DNA of 39,870 nt from Acidobacteriota bacterium (GTDB lineage Bacteria; Acidobacteriota; Vicinamibacteria; Vicinamibacterales; UBA2999). A model generated the notes under the pieces. That model was given only the letters and a program-made list of their open reading frames with translations, was not told the DNA's origin and did not search any database. Of the stretch, positions 3,211-27,400 are shown piece after piece; within the stretch, counting starts at the first letter, position 1; each line of letters opens with the position of its first letter. A program made the position numbers and the translations under genes. Where the stretch lies: contig SHUG01000010.1 in the NCBI GenBank assembly GCA_009694735.1, positions 1-39,870 of the forward strand, read 5' to 3'.

Positions 3211-4607
3211 CTCGTGCCTTTCGGACCGTCTTCGAGGATCACACCCTTGTCGAGCAGGTCCTGGCGAATGCGGTCAGCTTCGGCGAAGTCGCGGCGGCGG
3301 CGGGCATCCTGGCGGGCCTCAATGCCGGCGTCGATCTCGCCTTGCGGGATCGGCGGGGTGGCCTCTTCGGCGTGGCGCAGCGAGAGCACGCCCAATACCT
3401 GGTCGAAGTGGTCGAAGGCGGCCTTAATCCCAGGCGCCTCGGCCTCGCCCACTTGCTTTGCGTCCATCGCGATATTGAGCGCGCGGACCAGATCGAACAG
3501 CTCGCCCAAGCCGGCGGCGGTGTTGAGGTCGTCACTGAGCGCGGCATCGAACGCCTCAACCCCTGCTTTGACGCGAGCGGTCACCTCCGCATGGGTGCCG
3601 CCACCCGACAACGCGCCCACGCGCCCAAGGAAGTCGGTGATGCGGCGCAGCGCTTCTTCCGCCTGCTCGAGACCAATCCAGGTGAAGTTCAGCTGCTTGC
3701 GGTAGTACGCCGACAACAGGATGTAGCGCAGCGCCGACAGCCGGAAGCCGCGATCGAGCACGTCTTGCACCGTGTAGACGTTGCCCACCGACTTCGACAT
3801 CTTCTGGTTGTCCACCAGCAGGTGCTCGATGTGGAACCAGAACTTCGAGAACTCCTTGCCGGTGGCGCCTTCGCTCTGCGCGATCTCATTCTCGTGATGC
3901 GGGAACACCAGGTCGACCCCACCGGTGTGGATGTCGATCGGCGACTCGCCGAGCAGCCGCAGCGCCATCGCCGAGCACTCGATGTGCCAGCCGGGACGGC
4001 CCGGGCCGCAACCCACGTCCCACGTCGTCTCGCCGGGCTTGGTCGCCTTCCACAGCACGAAGTCGCGCGCGTTCTCCTTCTCGTACTCGTCGGAGTCAAC
4101 CCGCGCGCCGGCCTGGATGCCCTCGTGATCGAGCCGCGCCAGCTTGCCGTAGGCCGGCAGCGTCGCGATCTTGAAGTAGATCGACCCGTCGCTCTGGTAG
4201 GTGTGGCCGCGCTCCCCCAGCTGGTTGATCATGTCGGCCATCGCCCGCAGGTTTTCCGGGTCGGTCGCGCGCGGCGTGTCTTCCACCGGTTCGATGCCCA
4301 GGGCCAGCGCGTCTTCACGGAAGGCCTTGATGTACTGGTCGGTGTATTCGCGCAGCGGCAGGCCCGACTTCTCCGCGCCGACAATGGTCTTGTCATCGAC
4401 GTCGGTAAAGTTCATGACGTGGTGCATCTGGAAGCCGCCGACGTACTTCAGCGCGCGGCGCAGCACGTCGACGCCCACGAAGGTGCGGAAGTTACCGATG
4501 TGGCCACGGGCATACACCGTGAGGCCGCAGGTGTACATCCGCACGGTGTTGTCGCGTACCGGGACGAACGGTTCGACCTGGCGGGTAAGGGTGTTGTAAA
4601 GACGCAT
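3195..4607 (-). CDS. cysS: Cysteinyl-tRNA synthetase
   Basis: The 470-aa class I synthetase charges tRNA-Cys with cysteine in the cytosol. It shows the HIGH-type motif GHIGN (35-39), KMSKS (269-273), and the zinc ligands C27 (YTCGLTVY), C211 (WHIECSA) and H237/E241 (FPHHENE) that discriminate cysteine. The C-terminal helical domain contains ARQDARRRRDFAEADRIR. Length is normal. The ATG lies 9 bp after the stop of the preceding 88-aa gene. The tRNA it charges is encoded at the left end of the window on the same strand. Confidence 0.97.
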   Translation of the reverse strand: MRLYNTLTRQVEPFVPVRDNTVRMYTCGLTVYARGHIGNFRTFVGVDVLRRALKYVGGFQMHHVMNFTDVDDKTIVGAEKSGLPLREYTDQYIKAFREDALALGIEPVEDTPRATDPENLRAMADMINQLGERGHTYQSDGSIYFKIATLPAYGKLARLDHEGIQAGARVDSDEYEKENARDFVLWKATKPGETTWDVGCGPGRPGWHIECSAMALRLLGESPIDIHTGGVDLVFPHHENEIAQSEGATGKEFSKFWFHIEHLLVDNQKMSKSVGNVYTVQDVLDRGFRLSALRYILLSAYYRKQLNFTWIGLEQAEEALRRITDFLGRVGALSGGGTHAEVTARVKAGVEAFDAALSDDLNTAAGLGELFDLVRALNIAMDAKQVGEAEAPGIKAAFDHFDQVLGVLSLRHAEEATPPIPQGEIDAGIEARQDARRRRDFAEADRIRQDLLDKGVILEDGPKGTRWKRR

Positions 4608-16114: not shown

Positions 16115-17806
16115 CGCACGGTTGACAGTGTTAGTGACCGTTTGAGACAGTACGGGGCGGTGCCATCCGACGTCTCGCCCGTCTCCGCCTCATTGGCGGT
16201 GGACATTCGTACATTCCCGTGGATTCGGCGACTGGCGTCCGACTACGCGTTCGCGTACGCGAACGTGGCGCCGTTCTTCGCCGGCGATCCCGCCACCCCT
16301 GACGCCTGGGCCGATACCATCCGGCGCTCGCAGAGCTATGCCCGTCAACCGGCCCAGATTGCGCGCGTCATCGCGGATCAACAGCAGCGGCGCGGCGCGC
16401 CGGCCGCCTCGCGCGCCTCGGGCGCCCGGCTCGCCGACCCCGCCACACGGGTCGTCATCACGGGCCAACAAGCCGGCTTGTTCGGCGGACCCCTCTTCAC
16501 GCTGCTCAAGGCCCTCACGGCCATGAAGCTGGCAGCCAAGGTGGAGCGCGAGCACCACGTGCCGGTGGTACCGGTCTTCTGGATTGACGCCGAAGACCAC
16601 GACTGGCCGGAAGTGAGCGGGTGTACGGTGCTCGACGCCGAACTGGCGCCCTCGTCCATCCGGCTGGCAGATCTCGACGGCGCCGGCCACCTCCCCATTG
16701 CGCGGCTCTCGCTCACCACCGACAGCGCGACGGCGGTCGATCGACTCGACGCCGCCCTGCCCGATTCTGAATTCAAGGCCAGCATCATCGCGTCGCTGCG
16801 TAAGGCGTATGCGCCAGGCACGAGCATGGCCACGGCCTTCGGGACCTGGATTGAAGAGGTGCTCGGGCCGCACGGCCTTGTGGTGTACGACTCGTCCGAC
16901 GTGGCCGCCAAACCGTTGGCTCGCGACGTGTTCGTGACCGAAGTCAGCCAGCCGGGCAACACCGCACGCATCGCCGCGCGCGCCGGGGAGGCCCTGGTGG
17001 CGAAGGGCTATCACGCCCAGGCGACCCTGGCCGACGGCACGGTGTCGCTGTTTCACCTCAACGCCGAACGCGCGCCGGTCCGCATCGACGGCAACCGGGC
17101 GTTCATCGGCGATCGCGAGCTCAGCCGGCCGCAGCTGGTCGACGAAGCGACGGAGCACCCCGAACACTTCAGCCCCAACGTCTTGCTCCGGCCGATTGTC
17201 CAGGACACGGTGTTCCCGACGATTTGTTATGTGGCCGGACCGAATGAACTGGCGTATCTCGGTCAGCTCAAAGGGGTCTACGCGCACTTCGGCGTGCCGA
17301 TGCCATTGATGTATCAACGCGCCACGGCGACACTGGCCGATTCGGCCACCGTCCGCTTCCTGAATAAGTACCAGCTACCGCTGACGGCGCTCAGGGCGCA
17401 GGATGAAGCGACGCTGAACCAGTTGCTGGAGAGCCAGCTGCCGCCCTCCGTGGAGCAATCGCTCGCGGCGGCGGCGGCGGCCATCAACGAGCGCATGGCC
17501 GCGGTGGCGGCGGCGGTGCCGCAGATTGACCCCACGCTCGAGGGCACCGTCAAGTCGACGCTCGGCAAGCTGCAGCACGAAGTGCAGTCACTGCACAACA
17601 AGGTGATTCAGGCGGCCAAGCGGCGTGACGAGACGCTGCGCCGCCAGTTCCAGCGCGCGCAGGCCCTGACCTTCCCGCAGGGCCACCCGCAGGAGCGTGA
17701 AGTCGGGTTCGTGTGGTTCCTGAACCGCTACGGCCCCGCCCTGGTGGACCGGCTGATCGATGAGCTGCCGCTCGAGATGGGCCACCACTGGGTCCTGACG
17801 ATTTGA
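16106..17806 (+). CDS. bshC: Putative bacillithiol-synthesis cysteine-adding enzyme BshC
   Basis: The protein is up to 566 aa. BshC is the last enzyme of bacillithiol synthesis, thought to attach cysteine to GlcN-malate. Family blocks include VITGQQAGLFGGPLFTLLKA, VPVFWIDAEDHDW, SPNVLLRPIVQDTVFPTI and YVAGPNELAYLGQL. A predicted coiled coil (about 410-500) carries the LQHEVQSLHNKVIQAAKRRD segment, then QEREVGFVWFLNRYG. The start is uncertain: the ATG at 16106 overlaps a possible promoter, and a GTG at 16199 would begin at VDIRTFPWIRRLA, where family similarity seems to start. It overlaps the next gene by 4 bp. bshA and bshB are not in the window. Confidence 0.88.
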   Translation: MLSRTVDSVSDRLRQYGAVPSDVSPVSASLAVDIRTFPWIRRLASDYAFAYANVAPFFAGDPATPDAWADTIRRSQSYARQPAQIARVIADQQQRRGAPAASRASGARLADPATRVVITGQQAGLFGGPLFTLLKALTAMKLAAKVEREHHVPVVPVFWIDAEDHDWPEVSGCTVLDAELAPSSIRLADLDGAGHLPIARLSLTTDSATAVDRLDAALPDSEFKASIIASLRKAYAPGTSMATAFGTWIEEVLGPHGLVVYDSSDVAAKPLARDVFVTEVSQPGNTARIAARAGEALVAKGYHAQATLADGTVSLFHLNAERAPVRIDGNRAFIGDRELSRPQLVDEATEHPEHFSPNVLLRPIVQDTVFPTICYVAGPNELAYLGQLKGVYAHFGVPMPLMYQRATATLADSATVRFLNKYQLPLTALRAQDEATLNQLLESQLPPSVEQSLAAAAAAINERMAAVAAAVPQIDPTLEGTVKSTLGKLQHEVQSLHNKVIQAAKRRDETLRRQFQRAQALTFPQGHPQEREVGFVWFLNRYGPALVDRLIDELPLEMGHHWVLTI

Positions 17807-20142
17807 AGAAGCGAGCGAAGAACACCGGCTGGCGCCGGCACATCTACCTTGGCCTCGGCCTGGCCGCGGTGCTCACGCTGGGCACCCTCGCCTATCTTTA
17901 CGTGTCGTACGGCCGGATTATCGATGCCCGGCTGCACGGCGAGCGCGACCGCACCGTGGCCCGCGTGTTCGGTCGGCCGCTCACGCTGCAGACCGGCCAG
18001 AACCTCTCCCCAGCCGAGCTCGTCGCGCGGCTCAACGATGTCGGCTACGCGCAGCGCTCGCGCGTCGAGCAGCCGGGTGAGTTCGCGATCGACCGGAACA
18101 CGGTCGTCCTGATCTCTCGCGGCGGCGACCAAGCGGGCAAGCCGCTCACGGTGTCGTTTCCCGAGCCACCGGCCGTCAAGAAGAAGTCCGCCACCCCGCC
18201 GCCGGTCGCCCAGCGCGTGGCGACGTTGCAGGCCGGGGGAAAAGCGGTGGATCGCGTCACACTCGACGCGCCGCTGCTGACCGGCTTGATGACCGGGACG
18301 CGCGAGAAGCGCCGGCGCGTGGCGCTTGATGTCATTCCCGCCCGCATGCAGGAAGCGGTGCTGGCGATCGAGGACCGCCGCTTCTATTACCACCCAGGCG
18401 TCGATCCCATCCGCATGGTGGGCGCGTTGTTGAGCAACCTGTTTAGCGACCGGGCCTACCTGTCTGGCGCCAGCACCATTACGCAGCAGCTCGCGCGCAA
18501 TTTCTTCCTGACCGACGAAATGGCCAGTGAGCAGCAGACCCGCCAACGCTCGCTGCGCCGCAAGGTCCTCGAGCAGTTCATGGCGGTGATCCTTGAGACC
18601 AAGGCCACCAAGGACGAGATCCTCGAGCTGTACCTTAATGACGTTTACCTCGGGCACCGCGGGTCGTTTGCCTTGCACGGGGTCGCCGAGGCGGCGAAGA
18701 TCTTCTTCGGCAAGGACGTCCGCAACCTGACGCTCAGCGAATCGGCGCTGGTCGCCGGCGTTATCCAATCACCGTTCTTTCACTCCCCCTTCAACAACCC
18801 CGAGCGCGCGCGTGACCGCCGCAACGTCGTGCTGCGGGCCATGGCCGATGCCGGCTACATCACCGCCGACGCGGCCGAGCGCGCGACCAGGGAACCGGTG
18901 GTGGTGGTGGCGCGCGCCGTCGACAACGAAGCGCCCTACTTCGTGGACTACCTGGGGGCCGCGCTGGACGAGTCGTTTCCGGGCGTGACGTCGAAGCCCG
19001 GCGTGCTCGACCTCTACACCACGCTCGATCTCAACCTGCAGCGCCACGCGCAGGACGCCGTCCGCGAAGGCATCGCCAAGGTTGATGCCACCCTCGCGCG
19101 CCGAAAACGCGGCCCGCGCCGCGTGGCACAGGCGGCGCTGGTGGCCATCGATCCGCGCACCGGCGAGATCCTGGCGTTCATCGGCGGCCGCTCGTACAAC
19201 CAGTCGCAGTTCAACCGCGCCGCCAATGCCCGGCGCCAGATGGGCTCAACCTTCAAGCCCTTCGTCTACCTCGCCGCCTTCGAAAAAGCCGCCGACGAGG
19301 GCGGCGACCTCACCCCAGCCACGATCGTCCACGACGAACCGACGACCTGGAGCTTTGACCACCAGGAGTGGTCGCCGCGCAACTACGACGGCGAGTACGA
19401 CGGGGGCATCACCTTGCGGCGCGCGCTGGCCATGTCGCGCAACATCGCCACCGTCAAGGTCGCCGAACAGACCGGCTACGACAAGGTCGTGGCGCTGTGG
19501 CGAAAGACCAAGATCGGCGAGCAAGACCAGGTGAAGCCGTATCCATCGGTCGCCCTCGGCGTCGTCGAGCTGACGCCGCTCGAAGTGGCCGAAGCCTACA
19601 CGGTGTTTCCGAATAACGGCACCATCAAGAAGCTGAGGTCGATCGTTCACGTGCAAAGCGGCGAGCACGACGCCAGGCCCACGGTGGCGGCCGGGCCGAG
19701 CGTGGCGCGGCCGGCCGCCGCGTTCCTGGTCACACACATGCTCCGTAGCGTCTTGAACGAAGGCACCGGCGCCAGTGCCCGTAGCGCGGGCTTCACGCTC
19801 GACGCCGCCGGCAAGACGGGCACCACCAACGACCTGCGCGATGCCTGGTTCGTGGGCTTCACACCGGAGCTGCTCACCGTGGTGTGGGTGGGCCTCGACG
19901 ACAACCAGCCGCTCGGCCTGAGCGGGTCGCAGGCGGCACTGCCGATCTGGACGTCGTTCATGATGAAGGCGCTCGCCGGCCACCCCAACGTCGGCTTCTC
20001 GGCACCCGCCGGCGTCAGTTTCGTCGAAGTCGACCGCGATACCGGCAAGATTGCGACACCCGCCTGCCCCCGCGTCACGCTGGAAGCCTTCCTTTCAGGC
20101 ACCGAGCCGCTCGCCAGCTGCGAGCTGCATCGATTCCAGTAG
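17803..20142 (+). CDS. Class A penicillin-binding protein (PBP1-type)
   Basis: The 779-aa bifunctional enzyme polymerises and cross-links peptidoglycan. There is a short cytoplasmic tail, a membrane anchor (about 15-36), a small domain of UB2H type (about 50-125) as in PBP1b, a GT51 glycosyltransferase with catalytic E190 in AIEDRRFYYHPGVD and GASTITQQLARN, then a transpeptidase with S482-x-x-K485 (GSTFKPF), SRN (545-547) and KTGTT (671-675). All catalytic motifs are present. The start is a TTG at 17803 whose last bases overlap the bshC TGA (TTGA), so it is translated by coupling. A terminator-like hairpin follows the stop by about 20 bp. Confidence 0.95.
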   Translation: MKKRAKNTGWRRHIYLGLGLAAVLTLGTLAYLYVSYGRIIDARLHGERDRTVARVFGRPLTLQTGQNLSPAELVARLNDVGYAQRSRVEQPGEFAIDRNTVVLISRGGDQAGKPLTVSFPEPPAVKKKSATPPPVAQRVATLQAGGKAVDRVTLDAPLLTGLMTGTREKRRRVALDVIPARMQEAVLAIEDRRFYYHPGVDPIRMVGALLSNLFSDRAYLSGASTITQQLARNFFLTDEMASEQQTRQRSLRRKVLEQFMAVILETKATKDEILELYLNDVYLGHRGSFALHGVAEAAKIFFGKDVRNLTLSESALVAGVIQSPFFHSPFNNPERARDRRNVVLRAMADAGYITADAAERATREPVVVVARAVDNEAPYFVDYLGAALDESFPGVTSKPGVLDLYTTLDLNLQRHAQDAVREGIAKVDATLARRKRGPRRVAQAALVAIDPRTGEILAFIGGRSYNQSQFNRAANARRQMGSTFKPFVYLAAFEKAADEGGDLTPATIVHDEPTTWSFDHQEWSPRNYDGEYDGGITLRRALAMSRNIATVKVAEQTGYDKVVALWRKTKIGEQDQVKPYPSVALGVVELTPLEVAEAYTVFPNNGTIKKLRSIVHVQSGEHDARPTVAAGPSVARPAAAFLVTHMLRSVLNEGTGASARSAGFTLDAAGKTGTTNDLRDAWFVGFTPELLTVVWVGLDDNQPLGLSGSQAALPIWTSFMMKALAGHPNVGFSAPAGVSFVEVDRDTGKIATPACPRVTLEAFLSGTEPLASCELHRFQ

Positions 20143-20155
20143 GTTGGTTGCCCAG

Positions 20156-20178
20156 CGCGACCGCCGCGCGGCGTTTTT
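20156..20178 (+). terminator. Intrinsic terminator of the bshC-PBP unit
   Basis: A GC-rich self-complementary segment (GCGCGACCGCCGCGC, or alternatively CGCCGCGCGGCG) is followed directly by TTTTTG. It begins 14 bp after the PBP stop codon. This is the best-formed rho-independent terminator in the left half of the window. Confidence 0.6.
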
Positions 20179-20181
20179 GAG

Positions 20182-20425
20182 AGCCACCGATTTCACAGAT
20201 TCACACAGACTGTGGCGGCCCGACATCAGGCCGGTTGGCATTTCTCAACCGGCCTGACCGAGTCGTCAGAAACCAGAGCCAAGAGCGGCTGTGGCTGTGA
20301 GCGCGCTTGGCACTGGCTTCTGACGGCTCGGTCCAGCGGAGCGACGCTCCGCGTCGGGCCGCCGTGGCAATGCATCGTTCGGCGGTCGCCATAATCTGTG
20401 GCTAACTTGTGACTAATCTGTGGCT
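20182..20425. repeat. 244-bp nested palindromic element upstream of the XdhC gene
   Basis: The ends are AGCCACCGATT (20182-20192) and AATCTGTGGCT (20415-20425), inverted apart from one base; a second AATCTGTGGCT lies at 20393-20403. Inside is a segment (20210-20367) predicted to fold as a closing stem plus three hairpins with very few unpaired bases. No coding frame is convincing here. The right end abuts the -10 box of the XdhC gene. A shorter element with the same type of ends lies at 26504-26618. Confidence 0.7.
20210..20367. other. Predicted four-way-junction (cloverleaf) structure
   Basis: Closing stem P1: 20210-20224 with 20353-20367, 15 pairs including three G-T wobbles and an unbroken 11-bp core GGCGGCCCGAC/GTCGGGCCGCC. 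P2: 20226-20237 with 20246-20257, 12 perfect pairs, 8-nt loop. P3: 20258-20283 with 20306-20331, 26 positions with two mismatches and one wobble, 22-nt loop. P4: 20336-20342 with 20346-20352, 7 pairs, 3-nt loop. Only 20225 and 20332-20335 are unpaired at the junction. It could act as a folded RNA or as a DNA cruciform. It resembles no RNA family I recognise. Confidence 0.5.
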
Positions 20426-20430
20426 ACAAT
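20425..20430 (+). promoter_or_regulatory. -10 box of the XdhC-family gene (leaderless type)
   Basis: TACAAT ends 8 nt before the ATG at 20439, so transcription would be expected to begin at or next to the start codon. The first T is shared with the right end of the palindromic element. No well-placed -35 is seen. Confidence 0.5.
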
Positions 20431-20438
20431 TCAAAGAC

Positions 20439-21275
20439 ATGAATCATGAAGTCTTCGCCGCGCTCGGGCAAGCGCTCTCCCGCGGTGAAGAGGCGGCGCT
20501 CGTCACCATCGTCTCGGCCAACGGATCCACGCCGCAACGGGTGGGCGCCAAGATGCTGGTGTTCGGTGACGGCCGCATTGTCGGCACGGTCGGCGGCGGC
20601 TGCTACGAGCACGACGCCATCGGCAAGGCGCGCCAGGTGCTTGAGACGCGCAAGCCCACCACGGTGCGCTACGACCTCAATGATGACTTCGCCGAGGAAA
20701 CCGGCCTGGTCTGCGGCGGGCAGATGGAGGTCTTCATCGAGCCGATCGAGGCGGCGCCGGCCGTCTACATTTTTGGCGCCGGGCACGTCGGCTACTACCT
20801 GGCCAGGATGGCCCACGAGGCCGGCTTCGGCGTGCATGTGATCGACGATCGCGCCGCGTTTGCCAACCCCGAGCGGTTTCCGTTCGCGGCGTCGGTGGTC
20901 GTCGACGACATTCCGGAGTGGCTCGCGCGCACGACACTGCCGGCCACTGCCTATGCCGTGGTCGTCACCCGCGGCCACCGCAACGACCTCGACGCGCTGC
21001 GCGCCCTGGCGCCGCGTGAGCTGCGCTACATGGGCTTGATCGGCAGCCGCGCAAAGGTTGCCCGTCTCTACGAACAACTGATGACCGAGGGCGGCGTCGA
21101 TCCCGATCGCCTCGCCCGCATTCACGCGCCGATTGGTCTCGACCTTGGCGCGGTGACGCCGCAGGAAATTGCCGTCAGCATCACCGCCGAGCTGATTGCC
21201 GTGCGACGCGGCAAGGCGGAGTCGCTCAAGGCCGCCTCGCTGCAATGGTTTCCCAACCTCAAAGCGCTGCGCTAG
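20439..21275 (+). CDS. XdhC/CoxI family protein
   Basis: The 278-aa protein belongs to the family that protects, sulfurates and inserts the molybdenum cofactor into xanthine dehydrogenase and related hydroxylases. The N-terminal XdhC_CoxI domain carries VSANGSTPQRVGAKMLV and GTVGGGCYE (49-57). The C-terminal Rossmann domain carries YIFGAGHVGYYLARMAHEAG, then VVVTRGHRNDLDALRAL and YMGLIGSRAKVARL, with IHAPIGLDLGAVTPQEIAVS near the end. Both domains are present. The ATG at 20439 is chosen because it follows a -10 box by 8 nt and gives the usual N-terminus. No molybdoenzyme subunits are encoded here. The stop codon lies inside the left inverted repeat of a palindromic element. Confidence 0.88.
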   Translation: MNHEVFAALGQALSRGEEAALVTIVSANGSTPQRVGAKMLVFGDGRIVGTVGGGCYEHDAIGKARQVLETRKPTTVRYDLNDDFAEETGLVCGGQMEVFIEPIEAAPAVYIFGAGHVGYYLARMAHEAGFGVHVIDDRAAFANPERFPFAASVVVDDIPEWLARTTLPATAYAVVVTRGHRNDLDALRALAPRELRYMGLIGSRAKVARLYEQLMTEGGVDPDRLARIHAPIGLDLGAVTPQEIAVSITAELIAVRRGKAESLKAASLQWFPNLKALR

Positions 21276-21438
21276 TCCCCTGGAAGCGTGATGACTGGCA
21301 TAAGTCCCGGAGCGCGGCGCCCGGATCGCAAGGCGCGACGACTGAGCATATTGGGCATCTGTGAGGGAGGAGCAACGCAGCGAGGCGGGATGCCCCGCCC
21401 GGGAATTATGTGAGTCATCACGCTTCCAGGGGACTAGC
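21271..21438. mobile_element. 168-bp MITE-like element with perfect 26-bp inverted ends
   Basis: Positions 21271-21296 and 21413-21438 are perfect inverted copies (26 bp), with CTAG near each outer edge that may be a 4-bp target duplication or part of the repeat. A second inner stem continues the palindrome (21299-21310 with 21399-21410, one mismatch). The core holds a GGCGGG-ATGC-CCCGCC hairpin at 21385-21400 and GC-rich short stems. No transposase frame fits inside. The left end contains the last codons and TAG of the XdhC gene; the right end lies 25 bp before the amidohydrolase start. Confidence 0.65.
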
Positions 21439-26500: not shown

Positions 26501-26503
26501 AAC

Positions 26504-26618
26504 AGCCACGGATTAACACTGATTAGACACAGATCTGATGTTCTGTGCCATTGCCGCCTTGTGGAATGAATCTGTGTTTAATCTGTGTCGAATCTGTGGC
26601 TGTGCTTAATCTGTGGCT
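26504..26618. repeat. Palindromic element with AATCTGTGGCT ends (short form)
   Basis: AGCCACGGATT (26504-26514) and AATCTGTGGCT (26591-26601, repeated at 26608-26618) bound an imperfect inverted repeat of about 31 bp per arm (26504-26534 with 26570-26601). The ends and the doubled right terminus match the larger element at 20182-20425. It fills the gap between convergent prmA and the DUF1028 gene and its right edge touches the latter's stop codon. A bidirectional stop for transcription is possible. Confidence 0.7.
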
Positions 26619-27400
26619 CACTTCACCGGCCGCTGACTGCCCTTTTCTCTCGCGGCATTCCAGCTCTCGACCACGCGGCGCAGTTCCTTGAACGGGTTCG
26701 GGCTGTCGTCCACTTGCAGGCGCAGCACAGTGTCGTTGTTCAACCACACGCCACCGCCCTTCTTGACGATCACCATCGACGCCGCCTGCATGCCGCGCGT
26801 GTCGCCGCCCGCGGCCTGGCCGGCATCGAGCGCCGCCATCAAGCGCAGTGAGAGGTGTCCCTTGGTTTCCTCGAAGGCTTTAACCATGCCCTCGACCACC
26901 GCCGGACCGGCCAGGATGTTGCCCTGCGCCGTGCAGTACTTGCCTTGCTTCCCGCCCGCCCAGGTCGTGGCCTTGGGACCGGTTAAGGTCGCCGTGTTGC
27001 CTTGCAGATCGATCACCGCGAACTGGCGGCCCTGCTTGGTCCACCGCTCGGGCTGCGGGTCTGGATCGCTCTCCCAGATGGCCTTGATGATGGCGTCGGG
27101 CTTCATGCCTGCTCTCAGCAGCGCGATGCCCTTGGGCCCGTAACTCACGTCGACGATTGCCTGCGTGGCGACGACGCCAGCATCGGCATCGGCGGTCAGC
27201 ACGCCAGTCAGCGTGAACACGCGCGACTGCACGGCGCCGCCGACCTCGCCGGTTTCAGGATCGAACCCGAGAATCGAGAACGTCGCAACCGTGGGAGGCA
27301 GCTCTTGTCCCACGCCTTGCGCCATTACGCCGAGCGGTAGCGCGGCGCCAACGGCCGCGCAGGTGGCAGCGGCCGCCAACAACATCAGGATTCTCTTCAT
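26618..27400 (-). CDS. Secreted DUF1028 family protein
   Basis: The 260-aa protein has a signal peptide (KRILMLLAAAATCAAVGAAL, probable cleavage near AMA/QG at about residue 28). The mature part starts with ATFSILGFDPETGEVGGAVQ and continues with GVVATQAIVDVSYGPKGIAL, the DUF1028 hallmark; the family is predicted to have an Ntn-hydrolase fold. Its biochemical function is not established. The ATG at 27400 overlaps the rsmE TGA by one base (TGATG) with GGAGAG upstream; a GTG one codon earlier is an alternative. It is probably exported to the periplasm. Confidence 0.85.
   Translation of the reverse strand: MKRILMLLAAAATCAAVGAALPLGVMAQGVGQELPPTVATFSILGFDPETGEVGGAVQSRVFTLTGVLTADADAGVVATQAIVDVSYGPKGIALLRAGMKPDAIIKAIWESDPDPQPERWTKQGRQFAVIDLQGNTATLTGPKATTWAGGKQGKYCTAQGNILAGPAVVEGMVKAFEETKGHLSLRLMAALDAGQAAGGDTRGMQAASMVIVKKGGGVWLNNDTVLRLQVDDSPNPFKELRRVVESWNAAREKGSQRPVK

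Follow-up and report, generated by a model that had tools for sequence, protein, structure and literature searches.

Dispersed four-armed palindromes in Acidobacteriota and their association with GxxExxY genes

Results and discussion

A four-armed palindrome upstream of xdhC

The window analyzed here is a 39,870-nt stretch, read on the forward strand, from the genome of an Acidobacteriota bacterium (UBA2999; assembly GCA_009694735.1, contig SHUG01000010.1). Within it, a penicillin-binding protein 1A (PBP1A)-like gene (Transgly and Transpeptidase; 17803–20142) is followed on the same strand by an XdhC-family gene (PF02625 and PF13478; 20439–21275), the downstream neighbor that a first-pass annotation of the sequence had already named, and a palindromic element of 245 bp with a core of about 150 bp occupies the spacer between them. 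Folding of the core (20210–20367, 158 nt, forward strand) gave four stems. The outer stem, P1, has 15 pairs (20210–20224 with 20353–20367; without its outer end pairs the core spans 20214–20363), P2 (20227–20256) is a hairpin of 12 pairs (20227–20238 with 20245–20256) closed by a 6-nt loop, P3 (20257–20332) is a hairpin of 30 pairs, interrupted by single mismatches and uneven at its apex, which folding and alignment together identify as the arm that varies by compensatory changes, and P4 (20336–20352) has 7 pairs and a GAC triloop. Five bases are left unpaired at the junction (2 + 0 + 3 + 0), so the stems of 15, 12, 26, and 7 pairs with 1 and 4 unpaired bases described in the first-pass annotation were essentially right. 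The core is flanked by 11-nt units in inverted orientation, with a left array of three units, AGCCACCGATT TCACAGATT CACACAGA, on the reverse strand (20182–20209) and a right array, TAATCTGTGGC TAACTTGTGAC TAATCTGTGGCTA, on the forward strand (20392–20426), which agrees with the earlier description of a structure carried inside a palindromic element. The right spacer (20368–20391, forward strand), which includes GGCGGTCGCC, is by eye longer than the left one and resembles the spacer in the four copies from relatives.

The predicted minimum free energy (MFE) of the core as RNA was -114 kcal/mol compared to a shuffle mean of -69.3 kcal/mol (sd 4.4), which corresponds to a z-score of -10.2 with none of 200 shuffles equally good, and DNA parameters gave a z-score of -10.3; the fold is beyond chance, as had been claimed for it. 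In its exact register the element reaches -0.72 kcal/mol per nt. A weaker test was a scan of 404 kb of the genome in 150-nt segments spaced 50 nt apart. Of the 8049 segments, 2 were more stable than -0.60 kcal/mol per nt, against 1 in a Markov control. The element was not one of the two; on account of register, its best segments reached no more than -0.597. Two scans for junctions were set aside: a loose four-way-junction scan made 338 calls in 404 kb of genome versus 316 in about 416 kb of Markov-simulated sequence of a related genome (G007) and was useless, and an energy-density scan returned 24 and 41 branched folds that mostly resembled other GC-rich sequence and led to one copy in G007. 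A scan of the window with Rfam 15 found no gathering-score match over the element, with two tRNAs elsewhere as the only matches, so the suggestion that the layout lies outside the known RNA families holds for that release; at E-values up to 1, seven sub-threshold matches were found in 20100–20450, five of them to miRNA hairpins. The flank motif CGGCGGTCGCC was uninformative (50 sites versus 39 in a control).

Other inverted repeats are present in the window. Just after xdhC lies a second, different palindrome (21271–21438) with 59-nt arms that are 80% complementary; its 168 nt fold into a single long hairpin of -113.9 kcal/mol, and a partial relative (69 nt, 78%) lies at L118 (3420–3488). An inverted pair of the same 11-nt arrays with a 32-nt spacer and without a core is located between convergent ORFs (26503–26619). 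Throughout this genome, a two-unit array pattern gave 95 matches, compared to 34 for a reversed-pattern control.

Copies in related genomes

Relatives of the core with 71–74% DNA identity were found in three of the eight other genomes of the genus (one each in G005 and G008 and two in G007), and a DNA search of 43 genomes of the family gave no match beyond these three genomes. The genome that carries the window also contains a second pair of arrays (C59) around a core that differs in sequence but shares the four stems, as well as a third core (C58). Two covariance models were built, R1 from the window family, including the window copy, and R2 from four copies of the C59 family (alignment A6), with all window-family sequence excluded. 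R2 recovered the window copy at an E-value of 2.9e-7, the next-best match in the window having an E-value of 0.4; under the stricter filters of a 1.17-Mb search, the window copy was reported by R1, the model built with it, and not by R2. Copies matching R2 occur in 10 of 162 genomes of the order, this one counted, with several each in G007, G004, and G006 and one or two in the others, among which the match in G037 is weak (E = 0.006). Weak matches to R1 in G016, G034, and G027 consist for the most part of long single hairpins, and further ones at E-values of 0.1–0.5 were obtained in G012, G014, G017, G018, G022, and, twice, G007. Two pattern scans of viral contigs for a phage origin yielded no copy, the two matches of the second scan not folding as the element. 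A scan of named genomes with the end pattern of the second family returned one Acidobacteriota MAG contig (L171), which holds the same copy as G006, and a Pseudoroseomonas match that does not fold as the element and was rejected.

Duplicates on the opposite strand, multiple views of a single site (L171, L241, L255, L262, and L275 among them), weak or partial matches (L232, L238, L145, and L293), and minor second matches in L223, L228, L148, L245, and L276 were excluded, resulting in 44 distinct copies, of which 37 were joined by 7 more from the GxxExxY loci described below. The unit is four-armed and about 123–171 nt long. In 42 of the 44 copies, the MFE fold has a three-branched junction with 0–8 unpaired bases and the longest arm (27–37 pairs) in the middle. 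If an array is required to have at least three correctly pointing units, inverted arrays flank 39 of the 44 copies on at least one side and 17 on both sides, with none pointing the wrong way, while the corresponding counts at 4000 random positions were 76 and 9. By eye, the array unit varies between copies, being CACAGATTA-, CACGAAGGA-, or CACAGAGAC-like, and the association of arrays with cores therefore exceeds one shared sequence. Additional inverted short arrays with other units (GGGAGTC-like and GGGATC-like) were seen at L145 (9494–9709) and L117 (11458–11651).

Occupied and empty sites

The xdhC gene is present in all nine genomes of the genus, and the 420 nt upstream of it contain arrays and a core only in this genome, both being absent in all eight relatives. 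Inspection by eye showed a spacer of 10 nt at this position in three relatives, short inverted repeats of other kinds in four, and in G001 a different gene upstream. The PBP1A–xdhC spacers of L178, L179, L180, and L182 contain, again by eye, such other repeats (CCAGTAG-, GGGAGAC-, and CAGAGTT-like among them), and the spacer looks as if it attracts short inverted repeats. A second comparison of this kind was provided by the element at G007:C21:147615–147892, which is missing at the orthologous sites in G005 and G002, where 9 and 32 nt, respectively, take its place. Orthologous sites with and without the element, as expected of MITE-like elements, were thus found at two places. No target duplication was recognized, the junctions at the xdhC and G007:C21 sites having diverged too far to show one, and no active insertion was seen among the sites compared.

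Among the 26 element loci besides the window, only one pair has common flanks. One acyltransferase-like gene (named by inspection) precedes the copies in both G005 and G007 and, by eye, also the copy in G008, whose contig starts at the end of that gene; relative to asymmetric flanks, the window core appears by eye to be reversed compared to these four G005, G007, and G008 copies. At L106 (1024–3333; G007:C21), genes, one of them sigma-factor-like by eye, are enclosed by two equally oriented copies that are 97% alike, and the genes on either side of this arrangement are adjacent to each other in other relatives.

Covariation at the level of DNA

In the five-sequence alignment of the window family, 97.0% of the cells pair and nine pairs are changed on both sides, all within P3, a result reached in none of 500 shuffles; a control on further pair types was weaker, with 32 of 500 shuffles as high. 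In the second family (A6), 19 of 52 pairs are changed on both sides (0 of 500 shuffles). The mixed alignments A4 and A5 do not enter these counts. The first-pass annotation had let its reading stand or fall with the existence of second copies and with stems preserved by covariation; the covariance-model and DNA searches of related genomes supplied the former, and the compensatory changes in both families the latter.

Covariation, together with the very stable fold and a location on the coding strand shortly before xdhC, is what a structured RNA directed toward that gene would show, whether a small RNA or a leader with a four-way junction kept for RNA function. The window family taken alone is compatible with such an RNA, as its 12 cells changed on two sides are accompanied by 8 changed on one side, all of them G-U pairs or derived from one, and by 9 that are unpaired. 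In the second family, however, 28 two-sided cells stand against a single one-sided one, with 7 unpaired, and the changes come without G-U steps. Furthermore, the P3 arms of the 42 folded copies contain 50 G-T, 70 A-C, and 91 other mismatches in 1497 positions; if one strand acted as RNA, G-U should be overrepresented on it, and in the absence of an excess of G-T over A-C neither strand looks like an RNA strand. Given that the element accompanies xdhC in one of nine genomes, that the flanks of its copies are scattered, and that neither G-U steps nor a strand bias is apparent, an RNA role tied to xdhC is unsupported, and we regard this explanation as highly unlikely. Of the two alternatives offered in the first-pass annotation, a structured transcript directed toward xdhC and a protein-recognized DNA cruciform, the cruciform fits better, and the data point to a dispersed DNA element as opposed to an RNA family. 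The element also cautions that strong intergenic covariation in bacteria, which is usually taken as evidence for RNA, can arise at the DNA level.

Either selection or copying between arms may underlie the matched arm changes, and the one orthologous pair of solo copies, C59 in this genome and G007:C21:147688 (flanks 82–84% identical), does not discriminate between the two: 6 of 52 pairs are changed on both sides and still paired, one has become G-T, and two have lost pairing in one sequence. Template switching during replication yields matched changes without intermediates, and the palindromes could accordingly be passive, their arms kept matched with no protein involved and any use being that of a terminator or insulator. 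The short spacer that holds the window copy, flanked by genes on one strand and occupied in four relatives, by eye, by other short inverted repeats, would suit such a passive palindrome. This proposal leaves unexplained the fixed layout, with its 27–37-pair middle arm in 42 of 44 copies, as well as the appearance at new sites and the bracketing of GxxExxY genes presented below, and we consider it very unlikely. Strand assignments are relative to one model; the two models often differ on which strand of a copy is forward, and any correspondence of arm order between the two families is for that reason tentative.

Association with GxxExxY genes

GxxExxY proteins (TIGR04256; PF13366, PDDEXK_3) form a family of the PD-(D/E)XK nuclease superfamily that is named for a motif. 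Short arrays of the kind found here flank GxxExxY genes in other bacteria, and our data support this association within the present genus only. A search of the nine genomes of the genus gave 29 matches to PF13366. Of the two GxxExxY genes in the genome of the window, one contains an in-frame TAG and both lack an accompanying element, and no GxxExxY gene is near the window copy; the gene at C161 is a clear member of the family (121 bits versus a TIGR04256 cut-off of 35) and lies between arrays, of which one side only has the required three units. At 8 of the 29 loci, R2 gave strong matches (E = 2e-17 to 1.3e-9). Two elements bracket the GxxExxY gene at L255, L264, L268, and L275, and one element lies on one side of it at L258, L262, L276, and L278. 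R1 matched seven of these eight loci, missing L268. Since L264 and L275 are orthologous, the eight loci represent seven independent sites. The remaining 21 loci lack the element, including four of the nine that have arrays on both sides. Inverted arrays were found on both sides of the gene at 9 of the 29 loci and on either side at 13, none pointing the wrong way, compared to 0 of 26 loci with Y1_Tnp genes and 0 of 14 xdhC and acyltransferase loci, the latter with one wrong-way array (4 of 30 and 1 of 15 loci, respectively, were incomplete and left out of this control). In the reverse direction, of the 34 element loci that had been assembled ahead of the GxxExxY search, 3 contain such a gene; most copies, that of the window among them, are solo.

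The Y1_Tnp loci also served as the control for the element itself. A rival explanation is a REP/REPIN-like palindrome moved by the Y1 (HUH) tyrosine transposases of these genomes, REPs being dispersed palindromes too. Genes of this type occur in all nine genomes, three of them in this one, and TIR-flanked tyrosine transposases have been reported from Acidobacteria (PMC3733652). Of 44 Y1_Tnp matches, 30 were tested, the other 14 being without a locus, and none had a convincing element, as R2 and R1 each gave one match at an E-value of 0.023, at different loci; with these marginal matches counted as none, the difference from the 8 of 29 GxxExxY loci is significant (Fisher p = 0.002). Neither proximity to Y1 genes at the 30 loci nor the 20–40-bp unit size of REPs was observed for the element, the arrays are absent from the Y1_Tnp loci as given above, and the one Y1_Tnp gene at L212 adjoins a tandem cluster of a different palindrome. 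A Y1 gene at a distance may still move the palindrome in trans, but movement by Y1 transposases is, on this evidence, unlikely. The cluster at L212 (1000–1520; G005:C10) consists of tandem GCGACGGCTTTAGCCGTCGC hairpins, a REP-like palindrome, and a pair similar to this arrangement is present in the genome of the window (L119, 3480–3720).

In an alignment of 22 GxxExxY sequences, comprising 21 of the 29 loci and L171, a duplicate of one of these, D68 and K80 of the D..ExK motif are invariant and E78 is conserved in at least 90%. A search of PDB sequences with the protein found no solved relative, a single-sequence structure model was useless (pLDDT 38.6), and no assigned function was met in the literature searched.

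The arrangement of the copies at the bracketed loci bears on whether the palindrome is the end of a GxxExxY-encoding unit or a target site or hotspot into which these genes insert. Solo copies far outnumber gene-bearing ones, and at L268 the two copies of the unit are direct repeats with 96% identity, as duplicated targets could be. In addition, the array-gene-array unit at G007:C21:44461 has as its counterpart in G005 and G002 a short, degenerate inverted array, which would fit a pre-existing target. Against this, the two copies at L275, which are 84% identical, and those at L264 are placed on opposite strands by both R1 and R2, like terminal repeats, although the strand scores at L264 are close; the arrays lie outside both copies at the bracketed loci; and orthologous sites in relatives lack solo copies together with their arrays. 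We therefore view insertion of the genes into a pre-existing palindrome as unlikely.

Proposed mobile unit and related systems

Taken together, the window copy is probably a solo end sequence of a small mobile unit that encodes a GxxExxY protein and has four-armed palindromic ends, on whose junction the putative nuclease may act. The full unit would have the order inverted short array, four-armed palindrome, GxxExxY gene, four-armed palindrome, and array. Upon strand separation, the palindrome would fold into the junction, which the GxxExxY protein may bind and cut, a role suggested by the name of the superfamily, the conserved D..ExK residues, and the bracketing of the genes, and the unit could then be moved or copied through repair. 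Solo copies would either have been moved in trans or be left behind when end-to-end recombination removes the gene, as in solo LTRs; the two copies being direct at L268 and opposite at L275, recombination between direct ends and movement in trans are both conceivable routes. That the core occurs in two orientations would likewise be explained by derivation from opposite ends of a unit.

A broader proposal, which we put forward tentatively as the less probable extension, is that GxxExxY proteins are junction-specific nucleases driving bacterial mobile elements of a new class, whose ends are four-armed palindromes set in short inverted tandem arrays and recognized by shape and not by sequence, with solo ends spreading in trans. 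Recognition by shape would allow the ends to diverge almost completely, through matched-pair changes in the arms, while the fold stays fixed. If GxxExxY is the enzyme and the palindrome its substrate, an orphan nuclease family would be linked to a mobile element with shape-recognized ends, and the pairing of a protein of about 125 residues with a DNA of 130–150 nt offers a tractable test.

We recognized no description of these palindromes in the literature searched, which covered few subscription journals. The nearest organization is that of REPtrons and their TIR-flanked variants, in which a RAYT (Y1 tyrosine transposase) gene is flanked by REP palindromes and solo REPs are found genome-wide (PMC3733652). 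Both systems have a small enzyme gene between palindromes and many solo palindromes elsewhere, in intergenic positions and both orientations. They differ in that the enzyme here is a PD-(D/E)XK-superfamily protein whereas that of REPtrons is an HUH transposase, that the palindrome is four-armed and several times longer than the 20–40-bp REP repeat, and that outer arrays of short units are present, with one to about a dozen copies per carrying genome. The element is also like MITEs and other small non-autonomous bacterial elements in being short, non-coding, palindromic, located between genes, and absent at orthologous sites of relatives. Unlike in MITEs, no simple terminal inverted repeat with a target duplication was recognized, and the interior is itself a conserved four-armed structure; to our knowledge, the probable partner does not belong to any known transposase type. 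Multi-arm palindromic ends that occur in two orientations are familiar from the terminal hairpins of parvoviruses, to which the present element, being chromosomal and bacterial, may be likened in shape only.
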